From contig CABYJS010000002.1 of the NCBI GenBank assembly GCA_902519375.1, positions 1-64,000 on the forward strand: a stretch of 64,000 nt of DNA, read 5' to 3'. The stretch is from an uncultured Pelagibacteraceae bacterium (GTDB lineage Bacteria; Pseudomonadota; Alphaproteobacteria; Pelagibacterales; Pelagibacteraceae). Below are positions 44,916-57,876 of this stretch, in pieces (positions within the stretch are counted from its first letter, which is position 1; every line of letters starts with the position of its first letter). A model generated the notes under the pieces. It had not been told where the DNA came from, ran no database searches, and was given only the letters and a program-made list of their open reading frames with translations. The translations under genes were made by a program, and so were the position numbers.

Positions 44916-45644
44916 ATGAACTTTTCTCTAGAAATAGGTCCTAATACTGACATTGATACATTGCCTCCAGTAAATGATGTTTATATAACTATGTTGCCAG
45001 GTGGTGATTATAAGGAAACTGCTGGGAAAGCTTTAGAGCTTGTTAAAAAAGGATTTAATCCTGTCCCCCATTTTCCTGCCAGATCCATGTTGGACGAAAA
45101 TCAGCTAAAAGATTATGTATCTATATGCAAAGATGGAGGAGTCAAACAGGCACTAATAATTGGAGGTGGTAGAGAACCAGCAGGAAAATTTGATAGTTCT
45201 TTTCAACTTTTAGAGACAGGTTATTTTGAAAAAATGAAGATAGGAATCGCTGGACACCCAGAGGGGAGTCCTGATATATCCGATTCAAATTTAGAAAAAG
45301 CTATGATAGATAAAAAGCCTTATGCTGACTATATTGTAACCCAGTGGTTAATGGACCCTCAGCCTATCATTGATTTCATATCTAAACAAAGCATACCAGT
45401 TCATGTTGGAATTACTGGCCCTCTGAAAATATCTAGCTTAATAAAATTTGCTAATATTGTTGGAGCAAAAAATTCCCTAAACTTTCTTAAATCTAATTTT
45501 ACTAAGGCATTAGATTTACTGAAACCTAAAGACCCTAATGATTTAATTGGGAAAGTTAAATCTCATACTGATTTCTTCCACATTTATACATTCGGCGGCT
45601 TGAAGGAAACTAACAAGTGGTTGAAGGAGAATAGTTATGTCTAA
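44916..45644 (+). CDS. Methylenetetrahydrofolate reductase-like protein
   Basis: FSLEIGPNT, PHFPARS, IAGHPEGSPD, YIVTQWLMD TIM-barrel MetF motifs. Confidence 0.82.
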   Translation: MNFSLEIGPNTDIDTLPPVNDVYITMLPGGDYKETAGKALELVKKGFNPVPHFPARSMLDENQLKDYVSICKDGGVKQALIIGGGREPAGKFDSSFQLLETGYFEKMKIGIAGHPEGSPDISDSNLEKAMIDKKPYADYIVTQWLMDPQPIIDFISKQSIPVHVGITGPLKISSLIKFANIVGAKNSLNFLKSNFTKALDLLKPKDPNDLIGKVKSHTDFFHIYTFGGLKETNKWLKENSYV

Positions 45645-46995
45645 AGAATTTGACTATACTAAATTAAAGCATGTTACTTCTGTTGATCAATCTGATCGCG
45701 AAGTTCCATACAATTTAAGACAAAGTGGACCAACTAAAGTTGAAATGCTTATTTCAACAAGAGTAAGAAAATCACCCTATTGGCATTTATCAATGCAAGC
45801 AGGTTGTTGGAGAGCTACAGTTTATAATCGTATTTATCATCCTAGAGGATATGTAAAACCAGAGGATGGTGGAGCAATGGTTGAGTATGATGCGATTGTA
45901 AATCACGTAACGATGTGGAATGTTGCTGTAGAAAGACAGATAAGAGTTAAAGGACCTGACGCAGAAAAATTTACAGATTACGTTATTACAAGAGATGCAA
46001 CTAAAATTTCACCAATGAGGGCAAGATATGTTATTTTGTGTAATGCCTATGGTGGAGTATTGAATGATCCGATTCTATTAAGGATTTCAAAAGATGAATT
46101 TTGGTTTTCTTTATCCGATTCTGATATTGGAATGTATCTTCAGGGTGTTAATGCTGATCAAAGATTTAATTGTACTGTTGAAGAAATTGATGCTTGTCCA
46201 GTTCAAATTCAAGGACCAAAATCAAAATCACTTATGAAAGATCTTTGTGGAGATCAAGTTGATTTTGATAATATGCCCTTTTATGGTTTAGCAGAGGTCA
46301 AAGTTGGTGGGAGAAGTTGTGTTATCTCACAGTCTGGTTTCTCAGGAGAAGCAGGATATGAAATATATCTAAGGGATGCAACATTGTATGCTGAAGATAT
46401 GTGGAATGCTGTTTTAGAAGCAGGAAAAAAACATAATCTAATGGTTATAGCACCTGCTCACCATAGAAGAATTCAAGCAGGAATTCTTTCCTGGGGACAG
46501 GATATGGATCAACAACATAATCCTTTTCAATGTAATTTAGGTTATCAAGTTTCTCTTTCAGGAAAGGGTGAATGGAATAAAAAAGCAGACTACGTGGGTA
46601 AAGCTGCTCTTGAAAAAATGAAGGATGAACTAAAGTCTGGAAAAAAACCATATAAACTTCAATTAGTAGGTCTTGAACTTGGTGGCAAACCCATAGAAGA
46701 CTACGCGCCTGATTTTTGGTTAATTTCAAATGCTGATGGAGGTGAACCAGTAGGTTTTGTTACTTCGCCATGGTATCACCCCGAAAAGAAAACTAATATC
46801 GCTATGGGATATGTGCCATTTGACGGAACATTAAATCCAAATGGATTTCCTAAAGGTAAGATTGGAACTAAATATAAAATCCATCTACCAGAAAAGTATA
46901 CAGAAAAACCTGGGGCACCGGTCGATGCTGTAGTAGTTGATATTCCATTTAAAGAATCTTTTAATGCAAATACTAGGGAAGTAGTAAAAGGTTAA
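45637..46995 (+). CDS. GcvT-family aminomethyltransferase/demethylase (452 aa)
   Basis: VYNRIYHPRGY, WNVAVERQIRVKGPDAEKF, SDSDIGMYLQGV, RRIQAGILSWGQDMD; overlaps the MetF-like gene by 8 nt. Confidence 0.88.
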   Translation: MSKEFDYTKLKHVTSVDQSDREVPYNLRQSGPTKVEMLISTRVRKSPYWHLSMQAGCWRATVYNRIYHPRGYVKPEDGGAMVEYDAIVNHVTMWNVAVERQIRVKGPDAEKFTDYVITRDATKISPMRARYVILCNAYGGVLNDPILLRISKDEFWFSLSDSDIGMYLQGVNADQRFNCTVEEIDACPVQIQGPKSKSLMKDLCGDQVDFDNMPFYGLAEVKVGGRSCVISQSGFSGEAGYEIYLRDATLYAEDMWNAVLEAGKKHNLMVIAPAHHRRIQAGILSWGQDMDQQHNPFQCNLGYQVSLSGKGEWNKKADYVGKAALEKMKDELKSGKKPYKLQLVGLELGGKPIEDYAPDFWLISNADGGEPVGFVTSPWYHPEKKTNIAMGYVPFDGTLNPNGFPKGKIGTKYKIHLPEKYTEKPGAPVDAVVVDIPFKESFNANTREVVKG

Positions 46996-47144: not shown

Positions 47145-47687
47145 ATGTTTGGTGAATTCATTAATATAATTTTTAAGTCTATCAAATTAGATAAGTCGCT
47201 TTATAGTGATAATAAAAATTTCACTGAAGCATCTATATATTTTGCTGGTCTAATAATGATTTTAGATGGAATAGCTGGAGCAGTTGCTGCTAATACAGTT
47301 ATTAAGACTGCTGTTGCTATGTCAGGACTAACTGCAATACTTACTTGGTTTATTTGGGCAATCTTTATATTTGTAATAGGCGTGAAAATATTTCCAGACA
47401 AACAAACTAAAGTACCATTTAAAAAAGTACTTACTGCAGTTGGTTTTGCTCATGCACCTGGACTTTTAAGATTTTTTGCAGTTACTCCAGATTTGATGAT
47501 ACCAATAATTTTCTTAACTCAATTTTGGATTTTTGCTGCTTTGATAATATCCACCAAGCAAATATTAAACCTTAAATCAAACTTTAAATCTTTTGGAATT
47601 GTATTTTTATCCTTTTTAATAATAGCTTTTTTGTCTATATCTTTTGTTATGAGTAGAATGAATACTCTTCCAATAAATAATATCTAA
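47145..47687 (+). CDS. Yip1-like multi-pass membrane protein
   Basis: Hydrophobic pattern with GFAHAPGLLRFF. Confidence 0.65.
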   Translation: MFGEFINIIFKSIKLDKSLYSDNKNFTEASIYFAGLIMILDGIAGAVAANTVIKTAVAMSGLTAILTWFIWAIFIFVIGVKIFPDKQTKVPFKKVLTAVGFAHAPGLLRFFAVTPDLMIPIIFLTQFWIFAALIISTKQILNLKSNFKSFGIVFLSFLIIAFLSISFVMSRMNTLPINNI

Positions 47688-47845
47688 AGAGGAAAAATTG
47701 TTTTCGATATTCTGCAGGATTTGCATATCTTATAGCTGGTAAGAATTAAATTTTGAGTAACACTTTCATCTTCAGTCTTGCACTCATCACAAATATTATT
47801 TAAATCTTTTTTAATTTCTTCCTTTGTATTTTTATCATCAATCAT
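47684..47845 (-). CDS. 53-aa small protein with two CxxC motifs
   Basis: Read directly: MIDDKNTKEEIKKDLNNICDECKTEDESVTQNLILTSYKICKSCRISKTIFPL*. Confidence 0.55.
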   Translation of the reverse strand: MIDDKNTKEEIKKDLNNICDECKTEDESVTQNLILTSYKICKSCRISKTIFPL

Positions 47846-48449
47846 TATCGTTTAACCCAGCTCCTGCTGCTCCTTTTTTTAAGCTATCAGTTTCCTCAAC
47901 AAAAGTATTTTCTGATAATTTGTAAAGACTCTTCCAATCATAATCAGTAAAACTATCTTTATTATCTAAAAAAAAAATCTTAACAATTTTTGCTTTTGAT
48001 GGAAATTCTTTTTCTAACGAGTTTGACGATATATTTATGTTAAAATTTAATAAAAATTCATATCTATCCAAAACTACTAATAATTTTTTTCCAATTATTT
48101 CTGAAGATCTACTTAAAAAAGGTAATAATAATAGTGGATATGCTACATTCTTGAATAAACATTTATTATAATTTTCAATTTTTCTAATTTGATCTAGAAA
48201 ACGTATCCCTAGACTAATTGGACATAAAGAATTTTTGTTAGATGTATTTTTTTTATTAATCAATCTTATATCATCAAAATTTTCTTTATTTTTTTTTTGA
48301 TAATATCTATTTAAATTCTTAATACCTGGAAGACCGAATAATTCTAATAATCTAACACATTTTCCAACTTCTTCAGCTATGCCCCAAGAAAAACCAACTC
48401 CACGACTGGCTCTTTTGGAAGTGGTTTCTATTTCACTTAAAGATTTCAT
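47838..48449 (-). CDS. DUF3726 family protein (start chosen at MKSLSEIE; track ORF begins 48488)
   Basis: LSEIETTSKRASRGVGFSWGIAEEVGKCVRLLELFGLPG family pattern. Confidence 0.8.
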   Translation of the reverse strand: MKSLSEIETTSKRASRGVGFSWGIAEEVGKCVRLLELFGLPGIKNLNRYYQKKNKENFDDIRLINKKNTSNKNSLCPISLGIRFLDQIRKIENYNKCLFKNVAYPLLLLPFLSRSSEIIGKKLLVVLDRYEFLLNFNINISSNSLEKEFPSKAKIVKIFFLDNKDSFTDYDWKSLYKLSENTFVEETDSLKKGAAGAGLNDND

Positions 48450-48453
48450 AGCT

Positions 48454-50115
48454 TTATAACTTAGAATTATATACCCACTGCTTGTCAAAATTTTTTAATT
48501 CGTTAGGTAATGGTGCCCCTTGAAACATACAAATTCGCAGCCATTTATCTGATCTAGGATCGAATTTTAACGCACCAAAAAAAGATAATTTAAGCCTTAA
48601 CATATCTATAGGCATCAAGTTCTCACCAATTGTGTTATCTTGAATTTCAGAATATGGAAATTTTTCAACGATAAATGCTCTTCTAACAACATGTCTTAAA
48701 TCCGAATTATCAATTAAAAATTGATCCATAGTAAAATCATCTTTAGTCATCAACAATTTCTCATACAATTTTTTTATATCTCTAGCTATTGCAAGAGGTT
48801 GTTCTAGTTCAGAACCCGGTTCCTCAAAACGATCTGCAAGCCTAGGTTCTTCTTTGTTTTTCGAGATAAACCAAAATTTTTTAAAATTTTCTTCTTTTTT
48901 GAAATTTATCTCTAAAATATTAGTATATTTTTTTTCTAAAATTTTTCTTAATTCTTTTACCGATCGGTCAGTAGGAATATTAAAATATCTTTCCTCATCT
49001 GAGCTCATTTTTTTAATAAGAGGTTCTACTATTTCATCAAATGGTTCCATCATAATAGAAACAATATATTCTATACATTCTTCACAGGTTTCTCTTTCTA
49101 ACCACAGATATATTTTATTAAATGGATATTCTTCGGTAAAATCAAATTTTTTTTCAATAAAATTTAAAAATTTTTTTACATTCTTCAATAAAGATTTAAT
49201 TTTCTTTAATTGATATTCACTTTCAGTGTTCCAACTAGTAATATTCTTAATAGAATTTCTGACACAACTTTTAAATAAATCTCTATCTTTAATTTTGACT
49301 TTTTTTATTTCCCTTATTTTTTTTAATGCAGTTTCTCTGCACATGATCCAATTGTTAAGTAAAGTAGGATGATTTACTATAAAAGGTGCCATACCCAAAC
49401 CTGTTGAATTACCTATACCAAGACTTTTGCAAATATTTGGGTCGAGCTCTACTGCTTTTTTTAGATTTTTATTTTTTGCAACATGGTTCACTTGGTCAAA
49501 TGTAAATTGTCTTACAAGGTAAACTAACATCATCTCTAATCTGAAAGGACCATTTATCTCTTTCCTATTTTTTATTCTAAAACGATCTGCTAATCCAAAT
49601 TTACCTGACCCATAAACTGCTGTGGTTCTATAAAGGTAACCAACTTTATTTAATAAGTCTAAATTTGGTTGAACACCCTCACTTAAGCTATCTACAACAT
49701 GTTTAAATACTCTAACTGACTTATTGGCTCTTGATAAAGTTAATTCTTTATATGATAATCTTCCAACTTCTTGTTTTGGTACTTGGCTTTTTAGTCTCAC
49801 AATATCTTGTTTAGATGGAATGCCATCATGCAATGTAAAAGCAGCATCCCATTTTGTTGCTATTACTCTGTCTGATCTTTCTACATCATCTATTTTATTT
49901 GCAAAACATATTAAAGAATAAACTCTTTTTTTCTTTTTAAATGAATAGACCGCTACTCCAAAACCATATTTATCTAAATCAAATAAATCTCTTTTGTAAT
50001 TCCAATCTTTAAACTCATTTAGGAAGCTTCTTAAAAACGACAATCTAGATTGATGAAATGAACCAAGCCTCGAAAGCTTCATAATAATGTTAGGGTCACG
50101 TAATTCAAGATTCAT
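48454..50115 (-). CDS. Large conserved protein of unknown function (553 aa)
   Basis: Long ORF, 2-nt gap to the upstream dipeptidase gene; no recognised catalytic motif. Confidence 0.75.
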   Translation of the reverse strand: MNLELRDPNIIMKLSRLGSFHQSRLSFLRSFLNEFKDWNYKRDLFDLDKYGFGVAVYSFKKKKRVYSLICFANKIDDVERSDRVIATKWDAAFTLHDGIPSKQDIVRLKSQVPKQEVGRLSYKELTLSRANKSVRVFKHVVDSLSEGVQPNLDLLNKVGYLYRTTAVYGSGKFGLADRFRIKNRKEINGPFRLEMMLVYLVRQFTFDQVNHVAKNKNLKKAVELDPNICKSLGIGNSTGLGMAPFIVNHPTLLNNWIMCRETALKKIREIKKVKIKDRDLFKSCVRNSIKNITSWNTESEYQLKKIKSLLKNVKKFLNFIEKKFDFTEEYPFNKIYLWLERETCEECIEYIVSIMMEPFDEIVEPLIKKMSSDEERYFNIPTDRSVKELRKILEKKYTNILEINFKKEENFKKFWFISKNKEEPRLADRFEEPGSELEQPLAIARDIKKLYEKLLMTKDDFTMDQFLIDNSDLRHVVRRAFIVEKFPYSEIQDNTIGENLMPIDMLRLKLSFFGALKFDPRSDKWLRICMFQGAPLPNELKNFDKQWVYNSKL

Positions 50116-50117
50116 TT

Positions 50118-51083
50118 TTAAATAGTTTTATAAAAGTTATACCAATTGTTTCCTAGTATCCCATTAGTTTCATCATCAGAAAATCCAACCTTTTTTAACC
50201 CTTTTTCTAAATTTTTAAATCCTCTGGCATCTTCGAACCACTTTGGTTGTGTGGGAAATCCAGGTTTATTTTTTGAACCCTCACCAAAATTTTTACCTTT
50301 ACTCCATGTCCCATTTCTCATCCATTCAACAATTTCATCTGGCTGATCTAAACAAAGATCAGAACCAATACCAATATTTTTAATATCCATTATCTCAGCT
50401 GTTCTTGCTATCATCTCACAAAAATTCTCAAGGGTACAGTTTGTACTGTTTTTAAGATGATGCGGGTATAGTGATAACCCTAAAATCCCTCCACTATCAT
50501 TTAAAATTTTTAATAATTCAGAGGATTTATTTCTTTTTGCGGCGTGCCAAAAAGATGGGTTGGCATGAGTTATTGCTATTGGTTTTTCACTTATTTCAAT
50601 AGCATCAAGAGTACTTTTTTCTGCTGAATGAGACATGTCTATAACTATACCAACTCTATTCATTTCTTTAATAACCTCACGACCAAAATTAGTAACTCCA
50701 CTGTCATTTTTTTCATAACAACCTGTAGCCAATAAAGATTGGTTATTATATGTAAGTTGCATGAATCTACACCCTAACTCATGAACTTTTTCAACTAATT
50801 CAATATTATCCTCTATTGGTGAGCAATTTTGAAATCCAAAAAAAATTGCTGTTTTGTTTTCAGTATTTGCCTTTTTAATGTCTTTAAAACTTTTACCTAA
50901 AAAAATTAAATCTGAATTGTTTTTGAAATATTTTTTCCATTTTTGGATCTCGTTTAAGTGTTCATTAAAATCTTCATGGTAAACAATTGTTACATGAATC
51001 GCATCAAGACCTGCCTCCCTATTAATTTCAAAAATTTTTCTTGACCATTTACAGTATTGGAGATTGTCAATTTTATAATTCAT
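50118..51083 (-). CDS. Membrane dipeptidase (peptidase M19 / renal dipeptidase family)
   Basis: DMSHSAEKSTLDAIEISEKPIAITHANP, IGIGSDLCLDQ metal-binding motifs. Confidence 0.92.
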   Translation of the reverse strand: MNYKIDNLQYCKWSRKIFEINREAGLDAIHVTIVYHEDFNEHLNEIQKWKKYFKNNSDLIFLGKSFKDIKKANTENKTAIFFGFQNCSPIEDNIELVEKVHELGCRFMQLTYNNQSLLATGCYEKNDSGVTNFGREVIKEMNRVGIVIDMSHSAEKSTLDAIEISEKPIAITHANPSFWHAAKRNKSSELLKILNDSGGILGLSLYPHHLKNSTNCTLENFCEMIARTAEIMDIKNIGIGSDLCLDQPDEIVEWMRNGTWSKGKNFGEGSKNKPGFPTQPKWFEDARGFKNLEKGLKKVGFSDDETNGILGNNWYNFYKTI

Positions 51084-56110: not shown

Positions 56111-56190
56111 GTTTAAGTAATTTTTATATTTCCAAATTGTTTAAAAAAGGATACTAATCAGAAAATTTAATAAATTAAAGAATACTCTTA

Positions 56191-57876
56191 ATGAACAAGA
56201 TTAAATCAGACATAGAGATAGCAAGAAAAGCTAAAATGAAACCAATTGCTAAGATTCTAAAAAAAATAAATGTGCCAGATAAGAGTAGTGCTTTTAGTCC
56301 TATGGGAAGACATATCGCAAAAATTAATTTTGAATTCCTAGATAAGCTCAAGAGAAAAAAAGATGGTAATTTAATTTTAGTAACTGCTATAACTCCAACA
56401 CCAGCCGGAGAAGGAAAAACTACTACCTCAGTGGGATTAAATGATGGTTTAAATAGAATTGGAAAAAAATCAATTGTGTGTTTGAGAGAACCTAGTCTTG
56501 GTCCTTCATTTGGAATGAAAGGTGGAGCAGCTGGTGGGGGTTATGCACAAGTAGTTCCTATGGAACAAATTAATCTTCATTTTACTGGAGACTTTCATGC
56601 AATTACATCTGCACATAATCTTTTGTCAGCAATGATTGATAATCATATTTACTGGGGCAACAATCTCAATATTGATGACAAAAGAATAGTTTGGAAAAGA
56701 GTAATTGATATGAATGATCGTGCTTTAAGATTTATTGATATTAATACAAACGGTGTTGCAAAAAGTTTTAAAAGGATTGATGGTTTTGATATTACTGTAG
56801 CTTCAGAAGTAATGGCGATTTTTTGTCTTTCCAATGATTTGAAAGATTTAGAAAAAAAGATTGGTAATATAACTGTTGCATACAACAAAGAAGGTAAACA
56901 AGTTTTTGCAAAAGATCTTAAAGCTGAAGGACCAATGACAGTTTTGTTGAAGGAGGCGATAAGACCAAACGTAACTCAAAGTCTTGAAAATAATCCTGCA
57001 ATAATTCATGGTGGCCCTTTTGCAAACATTGCTCATGGTTGTAATTCTATAATAGCTACTAAAACAGCATTAAAACTATCTGATTATGTTGTGACTGAAG
57101 CAGGTTTTGGTGCAGATCTTGGAGCAGAAAAGTTTTTAAATATCAAATGTCGTAAAGCAGGTCTTTCTCCAAGTTGTGTGGTAATTGTAGCAACAATTAG
57201 AGCCTTAAAAATGCATGGAGGTGTTGAAAAAAAGGATTTAAAAAAAGAGAATATCAACGCCTTAAAAAAGGGTTTGGTGAATTTAGAGAGACACATTTTA
57301 AATATAAAAAAATTTGGTTTAGAGCCAATAGTTGCAATTAATCATTTTATACTAGATACAAAAAAAGAAATAAAAGTAATTTTTGATTTTTGTAAAAAAA
57401 TGAATGTTGAAGTGAGTGAATGTAAACATTGGGCTGAGGGTGGAAAAGGTGCTACAAATCTTGCAAAAAAAATTGTAAAAATTTGCAAAAAAAAAAGAGG
57501 AAAATTTAATTTTCTATATAAAAATACTCTCAAATTATGGAATAAAATTGAATTAATCGCAAAGGAAATTTACAAAGCAAGTAATATTACTGCGAGTAGA
57601 GAAATCATAGAGCAGCTTAAAATTTTTGAAGATAATGGTTACGGTCATTTGCCTGTTTGTATAGCCAAAACACAATATAGTTTTTCTACAGATCCAAAGC
57701 TTAAAGGTGCTCCATCAAATCATGAAATACCAATTAGAGAGGTAAGATTATCTTCAGGAGCAGAGTTTATAGTAGTTGTTTGCGGTTCAATAATGACAAT
57801 GCCAGGTTTACCAAAAGTTCCTGCTGCTGACACTATAAGATTAAATAAAAAAGGTGAAACAGAAGGTTTATTTTAA
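56191..57876 (+). CDS. fhs: Formate--tetrahydrofolate ligase
   Basis: [39 protein letters not shown]. Confidence 0.98.

Follow-up and report, generated by a model that had tools for sequence, protein, structure and literature searches.

An M19-like amidohydrolase, a protein of 553 residues (P553) and a DUF3726 protein, encoded by three adjacent genes in the window (the whole stretch analysed, 64,000 nucleotides from an uncultured Pelagibacteraceae bacterium), make up a triad that is conserved in Alpha- and Gammaproteobacteria. Outside the window's genus the triad belongs to a larger operon, whose composition, betaine-type transporter and linkage to N-methylglutamate dehydrogenase (Mgd) together indicate, very likely in our view, that an N-methyl zwitterion is degraded to N-methylglutamate; the substrate is probably homarine (N-methylpicolinate). 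The features concerned are:

51083 to 50118, minus strand: M19-like amidohydrolase, 321 residues (Pfam M19, 1.1e-72)
50115 to 48454, minus strand: P553, 553 residues, no credible Pfam family
48449 (ATG) to 47838, minus strand: DUF3726 protein, 203 residues (DUF3726, 4.9e-23)
47845 to 47684, minus strand: CxxC...CxxC (zinc-ribbon-like) peptide, 53 residues, cysteines conserved in the loci of the genus
56111 to 56190, no strand: EamA-Fhs junction, 80 nt, where four sister genomes carry an mgdABCD-like operon
56191 to 57876, plus strand: Fhs, formate-tetrahydrofolate ligase (NF010030, 884 bits against a cutoff of 652), given for context

The first four genes are closely packed on one strand, as an earlier note on this DNA had described: gaps of 2 nt and 4 nt separate P553 from the M19-like and the DUF3726 gene, respectively, and the CxxC peptide gene overlaps the DUF3726 gene by 8 nt. 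Each of the four reading frames is conserved in the window's genus, and chance is excluded as the origin of the cluster. The second gap is counted from the ATG at 48449; the listed start of the DUF3726 gene, TTG 48488, is probably too early, because most relatives begin at the methionine of MKSLSEI or MRSLSEI, which corresponds to this ATG. As a unit of four, which is how the earlier note took it, the cluster holds only in part: its first three genes recur far beyond SAR11, whereas the CxxC peptide was found only in the genus, with its cysteines conserved in 10 of the 10 same-genus loci aligned and no match in the loci of SAR11 family f2 or outside SAR11; it would be a SAR11-genus accessory of the triad. 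Convergent with the CxxC gene, and overlapping it by 4 nt, is a gene for a hydrophobic, membrane-protein-like product of 180 residues (window 47145-47687), which has no Pfam match and is kept at the same place in the genus.

Of 61 near relatives, 40 have P553, at 64-82% identity, and the protein extends to Rhodobacterales, other alphaproteobacterial families, gammaproteobacteria including Vibrio, and the haloarchaeon Natrinema. In an evenly drawn set of 240 alphaproteobacterial genomes, 27 encode DUF3726. The whole-collection scan for P553 comprises ten near loci only, the distant loci coming from genome searches. Neighbours were scored by tblastn or HMM, ORF calling having undercounted in GC-rich genomes, at the 62 P553 loci that are flanked by 5.5 kb or more on each side. 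DUF3726 lies near P553 at 61 of these (SAR11 10/10, other Alphaproteobacteria 42/43, Gammaproteobacteria 9/9) and the M19-like gene at 58 (10, 39 and 9), counts that are not independent events, because several loci come from the same families. The partners do co-occur outside SAR11, so the objection that they might not, which the earlier note had raised against itself, falls away, and its view of P553 and DUF3726 as coupled parts of a dedicated, co-inherited catabolic unit is borne out. Since P553, DUF3726 and the M19-like protein almost never drop out, they should perform the committed chemistry.

The surrounding operon is most complete in Rhodobacterales and rhizobia, which have the full set of five enzyme-like genes plus LysR, compared with three at the SAR11-genus locus. 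The genes follow the order LysR / ALDH - M19 - BCCT - P553 - DUF3726 - Ldh_2 in Rhodobacterales and LysR / ALDH - M19 - BCCT - P553 - DUF3726 in Gammaproteobacteria, some of which also have RidA; in Shinella WSD5-1 the arrangement is sarcosine-oxidase-like subunits - GlxA/AraC regulator - LysR / ALDH - M19 - P553 - DUF3726 - Ldh - betaine ABC transporter - purU. Within SAR11, family f2 keeps ALDH beside the triad and at some loci Ldh_2 as well, and at one f2 locus (L071) an mgd-like operon also adjoins M19. The transporters are of betaine type (BCCT or ProVWX), the ALDH is nearest to alpha-ketoglutaric-semialdehyde dehydrogenases, which act on a C5 semialdehyde, and the reductase gene belongs to the Ldh_2 family (PF02615); RidA and PurU genes are found among the neighbours, and fit imine and formyl/C1 intermediates. 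On the 262-kb plasmid of Phaeobacter inhibens DSM 17395 (L121 11864-17304), where P553 and DUF3726 are PGA1_RS19010/19015, the operon adjoins genes for DMSP demethylation (demethylase, AMP-binding, dmdD, acyl-CoA dehydrogenase).

The identity of the Mgd neighbours is read from a tree and from a regulator. In the tree, the sarcosine-oxidase-alpha-like proteins encoded near P553 (from SAR11, TM1040, G401, G125 and G221; the Shinella operon is not in the tree) group with two gmaS-linked ones (MgdC) at a support of 97/98, gmaS being identified by TIGR03105; the remaining paralogues, on the other side, are read as sarcosine oxidase. The AraC-type regulator beside gmaS-linked mgd is 45-47% identical to its counterpart at the P553-linked operon in Shinella or TM1040, and in R. 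pomeroyi an AraC-type protein, TmaR, is encoded upstream of mgdABCD (PMC13390433). In TM1040, G401, G125, G221 and the SAR11 sister genomes, alpha subunits of the Mgd side are encoded no more than 8.5 kb from P553, and in Shinella a sarcosine-oxidase-like operon adjoins the P553 operon, which shows linkage and not activity. Most other loci are without Mgd-like genes at this distance; outside SAR11 these occur at only 5 of 43 loci in Alphaproteobacteria and 0 of 9 in Gammaproteobacteria.

The constant partner of P553, DUF3726, is homologous to Ldh_2, shorter than it, and lacks the catalytic His. The window's protein (PF12525, 81.2 bits against a cutoff of 22.1) matches Ldh_2 in profile-profile comparison (E 1e-5, prob 82%), two family members score directly against the Pfam model of Ldh_2 (best 1.3e-10), and the two families are bridged by a Natrinema protein that takes the DUF3726 position. 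The AF2 model (pLDDT 88.8) finds the Ldh_2 fold in all of its best 23 Foldseek matches in the PDB, at modest E-values (best 3e-3). The homology is with the N-terminal part of the Ldh_2 family: DUF3726 proteins are mostly ~200 residues long, against ~335 for the Ldh_2 (PF02615) oxidoreductases, fall short of a full-length NAD(P)H domain, and nowhere in their alignment have the SHG catalytic His; because this residue is lacking, we take DUF3726 to be a pseudoenzyme partner. The tail of the protein, GAGAGLxDND, is conserved and has low confidence in the lone model, which suggests that it binds P553. The alignments for structure prediction left out three plasmid-record sequences; a literature search found no mention of DUF3726.

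P553 belongs to no Pfam, NCBIfam or PADLOC family, and a profile search against PDB sequences returned nothing credible. Its AF2 model is of high quality (pLDDT 90.5, pTM 0.91) and has no Foldseek match in the PDB or a viral library, so that the predicted fold is apparently new relative to these solved structures. The family has 40 invariant positions in 66 sequences, with many conserved Arg and the motifs GIGNSTGLGM and YGSGKFG; no motif of a cofactor site or an oxygenase could be recognised in it. A match to CesT_Tir_1 was weak and inconsistent across the family, and was set aside, as was a reading as a defence system, for which there were only weak chance PADLOC matches. We tentatively regard P553 as the putative first-step, ring-opening enzyme. 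With less than even confidence, we further propose that P553 and DUF3726 constitute a new two-component enzyme class of unseen fold, in which an Ldh_2-derived pseudoenzyme partners a catalytic subunit that opens an N-methylpyridinium ring, and of which SAR11 keeps only the committed core, passing the products to general metabolism.

For the pathway as a whole we infer the substrate and, for the second to fifth steps, both the chemistry and the order. Under the control of LysR, a BCCT or ProVWX-type transporter would import the substrate; P553 with DUF3726 would then open the pyridinium ring to an N-formyl, N-methyl C5 semialdehyde, much as TgnAB does on trigonelline; the aldehyde dehydrogenase would oxidise this semialdehyde, and the M19-like amidohydrolase would remove the formyl group, leaving the N-methyl imine of 2-oxoglutarate. 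The Ldh_2 enzyme, if DpkA-like, would reduce the imine to N-methylglutamate, or else RidA or water would hydrolyse it; MgdABCD would finally convert N-methylglutamate to glutamate and methylene-tetrahydrofolate. One enzyme with the Ldh_2 fold, DpkA, is an imine reductase and makes N-methyl amino acids out of keto acids and methylamine. Formate from the pathway could be taken up by Fhs. Homarine is the best candidate for the substrate because Mgd is reported to take part in its catabolism (Ferrer-Gonzalez et al. 2026, Nat Microbiol 11:1531, cited in PMC13390433); it is an abundant plankton metabolite, which TgnAB has been judged unlikely to accept (PMC8269262). Our literature search found no paper tying the transporter or the operon genes to homarine.

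The operon may instead degrade another betaine-type N-methyl compound ending in N-methylglutamate, for example proline betaine or N-methylproline via N-methylglutamate semialdehyde, with P553-DUF3726 as a new demethylase or ring-oxidising enzyme. We consider this unlikely, although the BCCT or ProVWX transporter, the C5-semialdehyde-type ALDH and the Mgd linkage fit it equally well, and although the whole operon is present in soil rhizobia (Shinella, Pararhizobium). Known proline-betaine catabolism proceeds by a Rieske demethylase and needs neither an M19 amidohydrolase nor Ldh_2. The involvement of Mgd, moreover, is reported for homarine.

More improbable, in our estimate, is that the triad acts as a broader toolkit on several cyclic N-compounds, and that the substrate of its SAR11 version differs from that of the full operon. 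Loci of a stripped kind do exist (L137-L141, L177 and L151), with P553, the M19-like gene and a gene in the DUF3726 position, and none of ALDH, Ldh_2 and Mgd; at two of these loci there are IclR regulators and ABC transporters of other kinds. The locus in the window's genus is likewise without ALDH, Ldh_2 and LysR, their best genome-wide matches being paralogues at no more than 41%, and in the window the EamA and Fhs genes stand 80 nt apart with the mgd-like operon missing between them. Against a separate substrate, six loci of the genus have mgd at a distance of 4-7 kb from the triad, and the window's P553 is closest to the copies of SAR11 f2 and of locus L052, where ALDH is present and sometimes Ldh_2 or mgd. 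In four sister genomes (L180-L183) a complete mgdABCD-like operon of 418, 86/89, 998 and 194 residues is found between EamA and Fhs, ~6-7 kb from P553. The window's genome, which is 75% complete, has no full-length mgd match; therefore the pathway may use another outlet there, or Mgd may lie in the missing quarter. Because the window is without mgd and the genus without close ALDH and Ldh_2 orthologues, the SAR11 version of the proposed pathway may end elsewhere. At two of the stripped loci, L177 6139-10390 (S. meliloti pSymB) and L151 6508-10699, rhizobia carry a paralogous cluster of IclR - distant P553 - ~245-aa gene without Pfam match - M19-like - ABC transporter, which perhaps serves a related N-compound.

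The M19-like protein, which the earlier note had called a dipeptidase, is unlikely to be a classical one. Its closest PDB match is 2i5g, an 'amidohydrolase' (5e-58), and by sequence both belong to one family with the M19 renal dipeptidase; in contrast to the latter, the M19-like protein has lost the HxD zinc motif and the bridging Glu. Of the binuclear zinc ligands (HxD, Glu, His, His), HxD is missing throughout its family, Glu is replaced by Gln85, and both His are kept; the substrate His is replaced by Tyr112, and 2i5g has the same Gln and Tyr replacements. His152, His173, Arg184 and Asp242 are retained in 64 of 64 aligned sequences. Because of these losses a peptidase activity is unlikely, and hydrolysis of some other amide is possible; we propose it as the putative amide/formyl hydrolase of the pathway. 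A peptide-like or lactone substrate, as the earlier note had suggested, with a true M19 dipeptidase whose peptide P553 and DUF3726 prepare, would accord with M19 family membership and is highly improbable, given these replacements across the whole family, the lack of any recurrent peptide transporter among the neighbours of the triad loci, and the presence of betaine-type transporters and a recurrent Mgd neighbour instead.

A homarine operon, homABCDER, with five structural genes and a regulator, has reportedly been described in Rhodobacterales and SAR11 by Ferrer-Gonzalez et al. in 2026, and may, we assume, be the P553 operon. The count of five genes plus a regulator would correspond to ALDH, M19-like, P553, DUF3726 and Ldh_2 plus LysR, and Mgd is reported to be the downstream enzyme; the window's genus differs in that its locus has only three of the five genes, with the CxxC peptide besides, and lacks LysR. 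The dedicated unit that the earlier note had seen here is real, but it may already be published and not an undescribed system. The trigonelline pathway, tgnABCDE, said to be the work of Perchat et al. in 2018, resembles the one proposed here in its N-methylpyridinium carboxylate substrate and in its ring-opening, aldehyde dehydrogenase and hydrolase steps, and differs in that no TgnA/TgnB-type oxygenase is found among the recurrent neighbours of P553. The points that may be new are that DUF3726 derives from Ldh_2, that the metal site in the M19-like protein is altered, that P553 apparently has a new fold, and that SAR11 carries a stripped version. Among marine heterotrophs SAR11 is the commonest; should the homarine assignment be true, P553 would be a usable marker gene for the flux of homarine carbon and nitrogen, DUF3726 would gain an origin and a likely role, the 'dipeptidase' annotation would be corrected, and P553, as an enzyme-like family without a solved fold, would present a clear biochemical target.

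Adjoining the triad in the window (44916-46995), and conserved in the genus, are a 242-aa MTHFR-like gene and then a 452-aa GcvT/DmdA-like gene, whose product scores 230 bits to DmdA, against a cutoff of 410; the two are perhaps a folate-dependent demethylation pair for some substrate.
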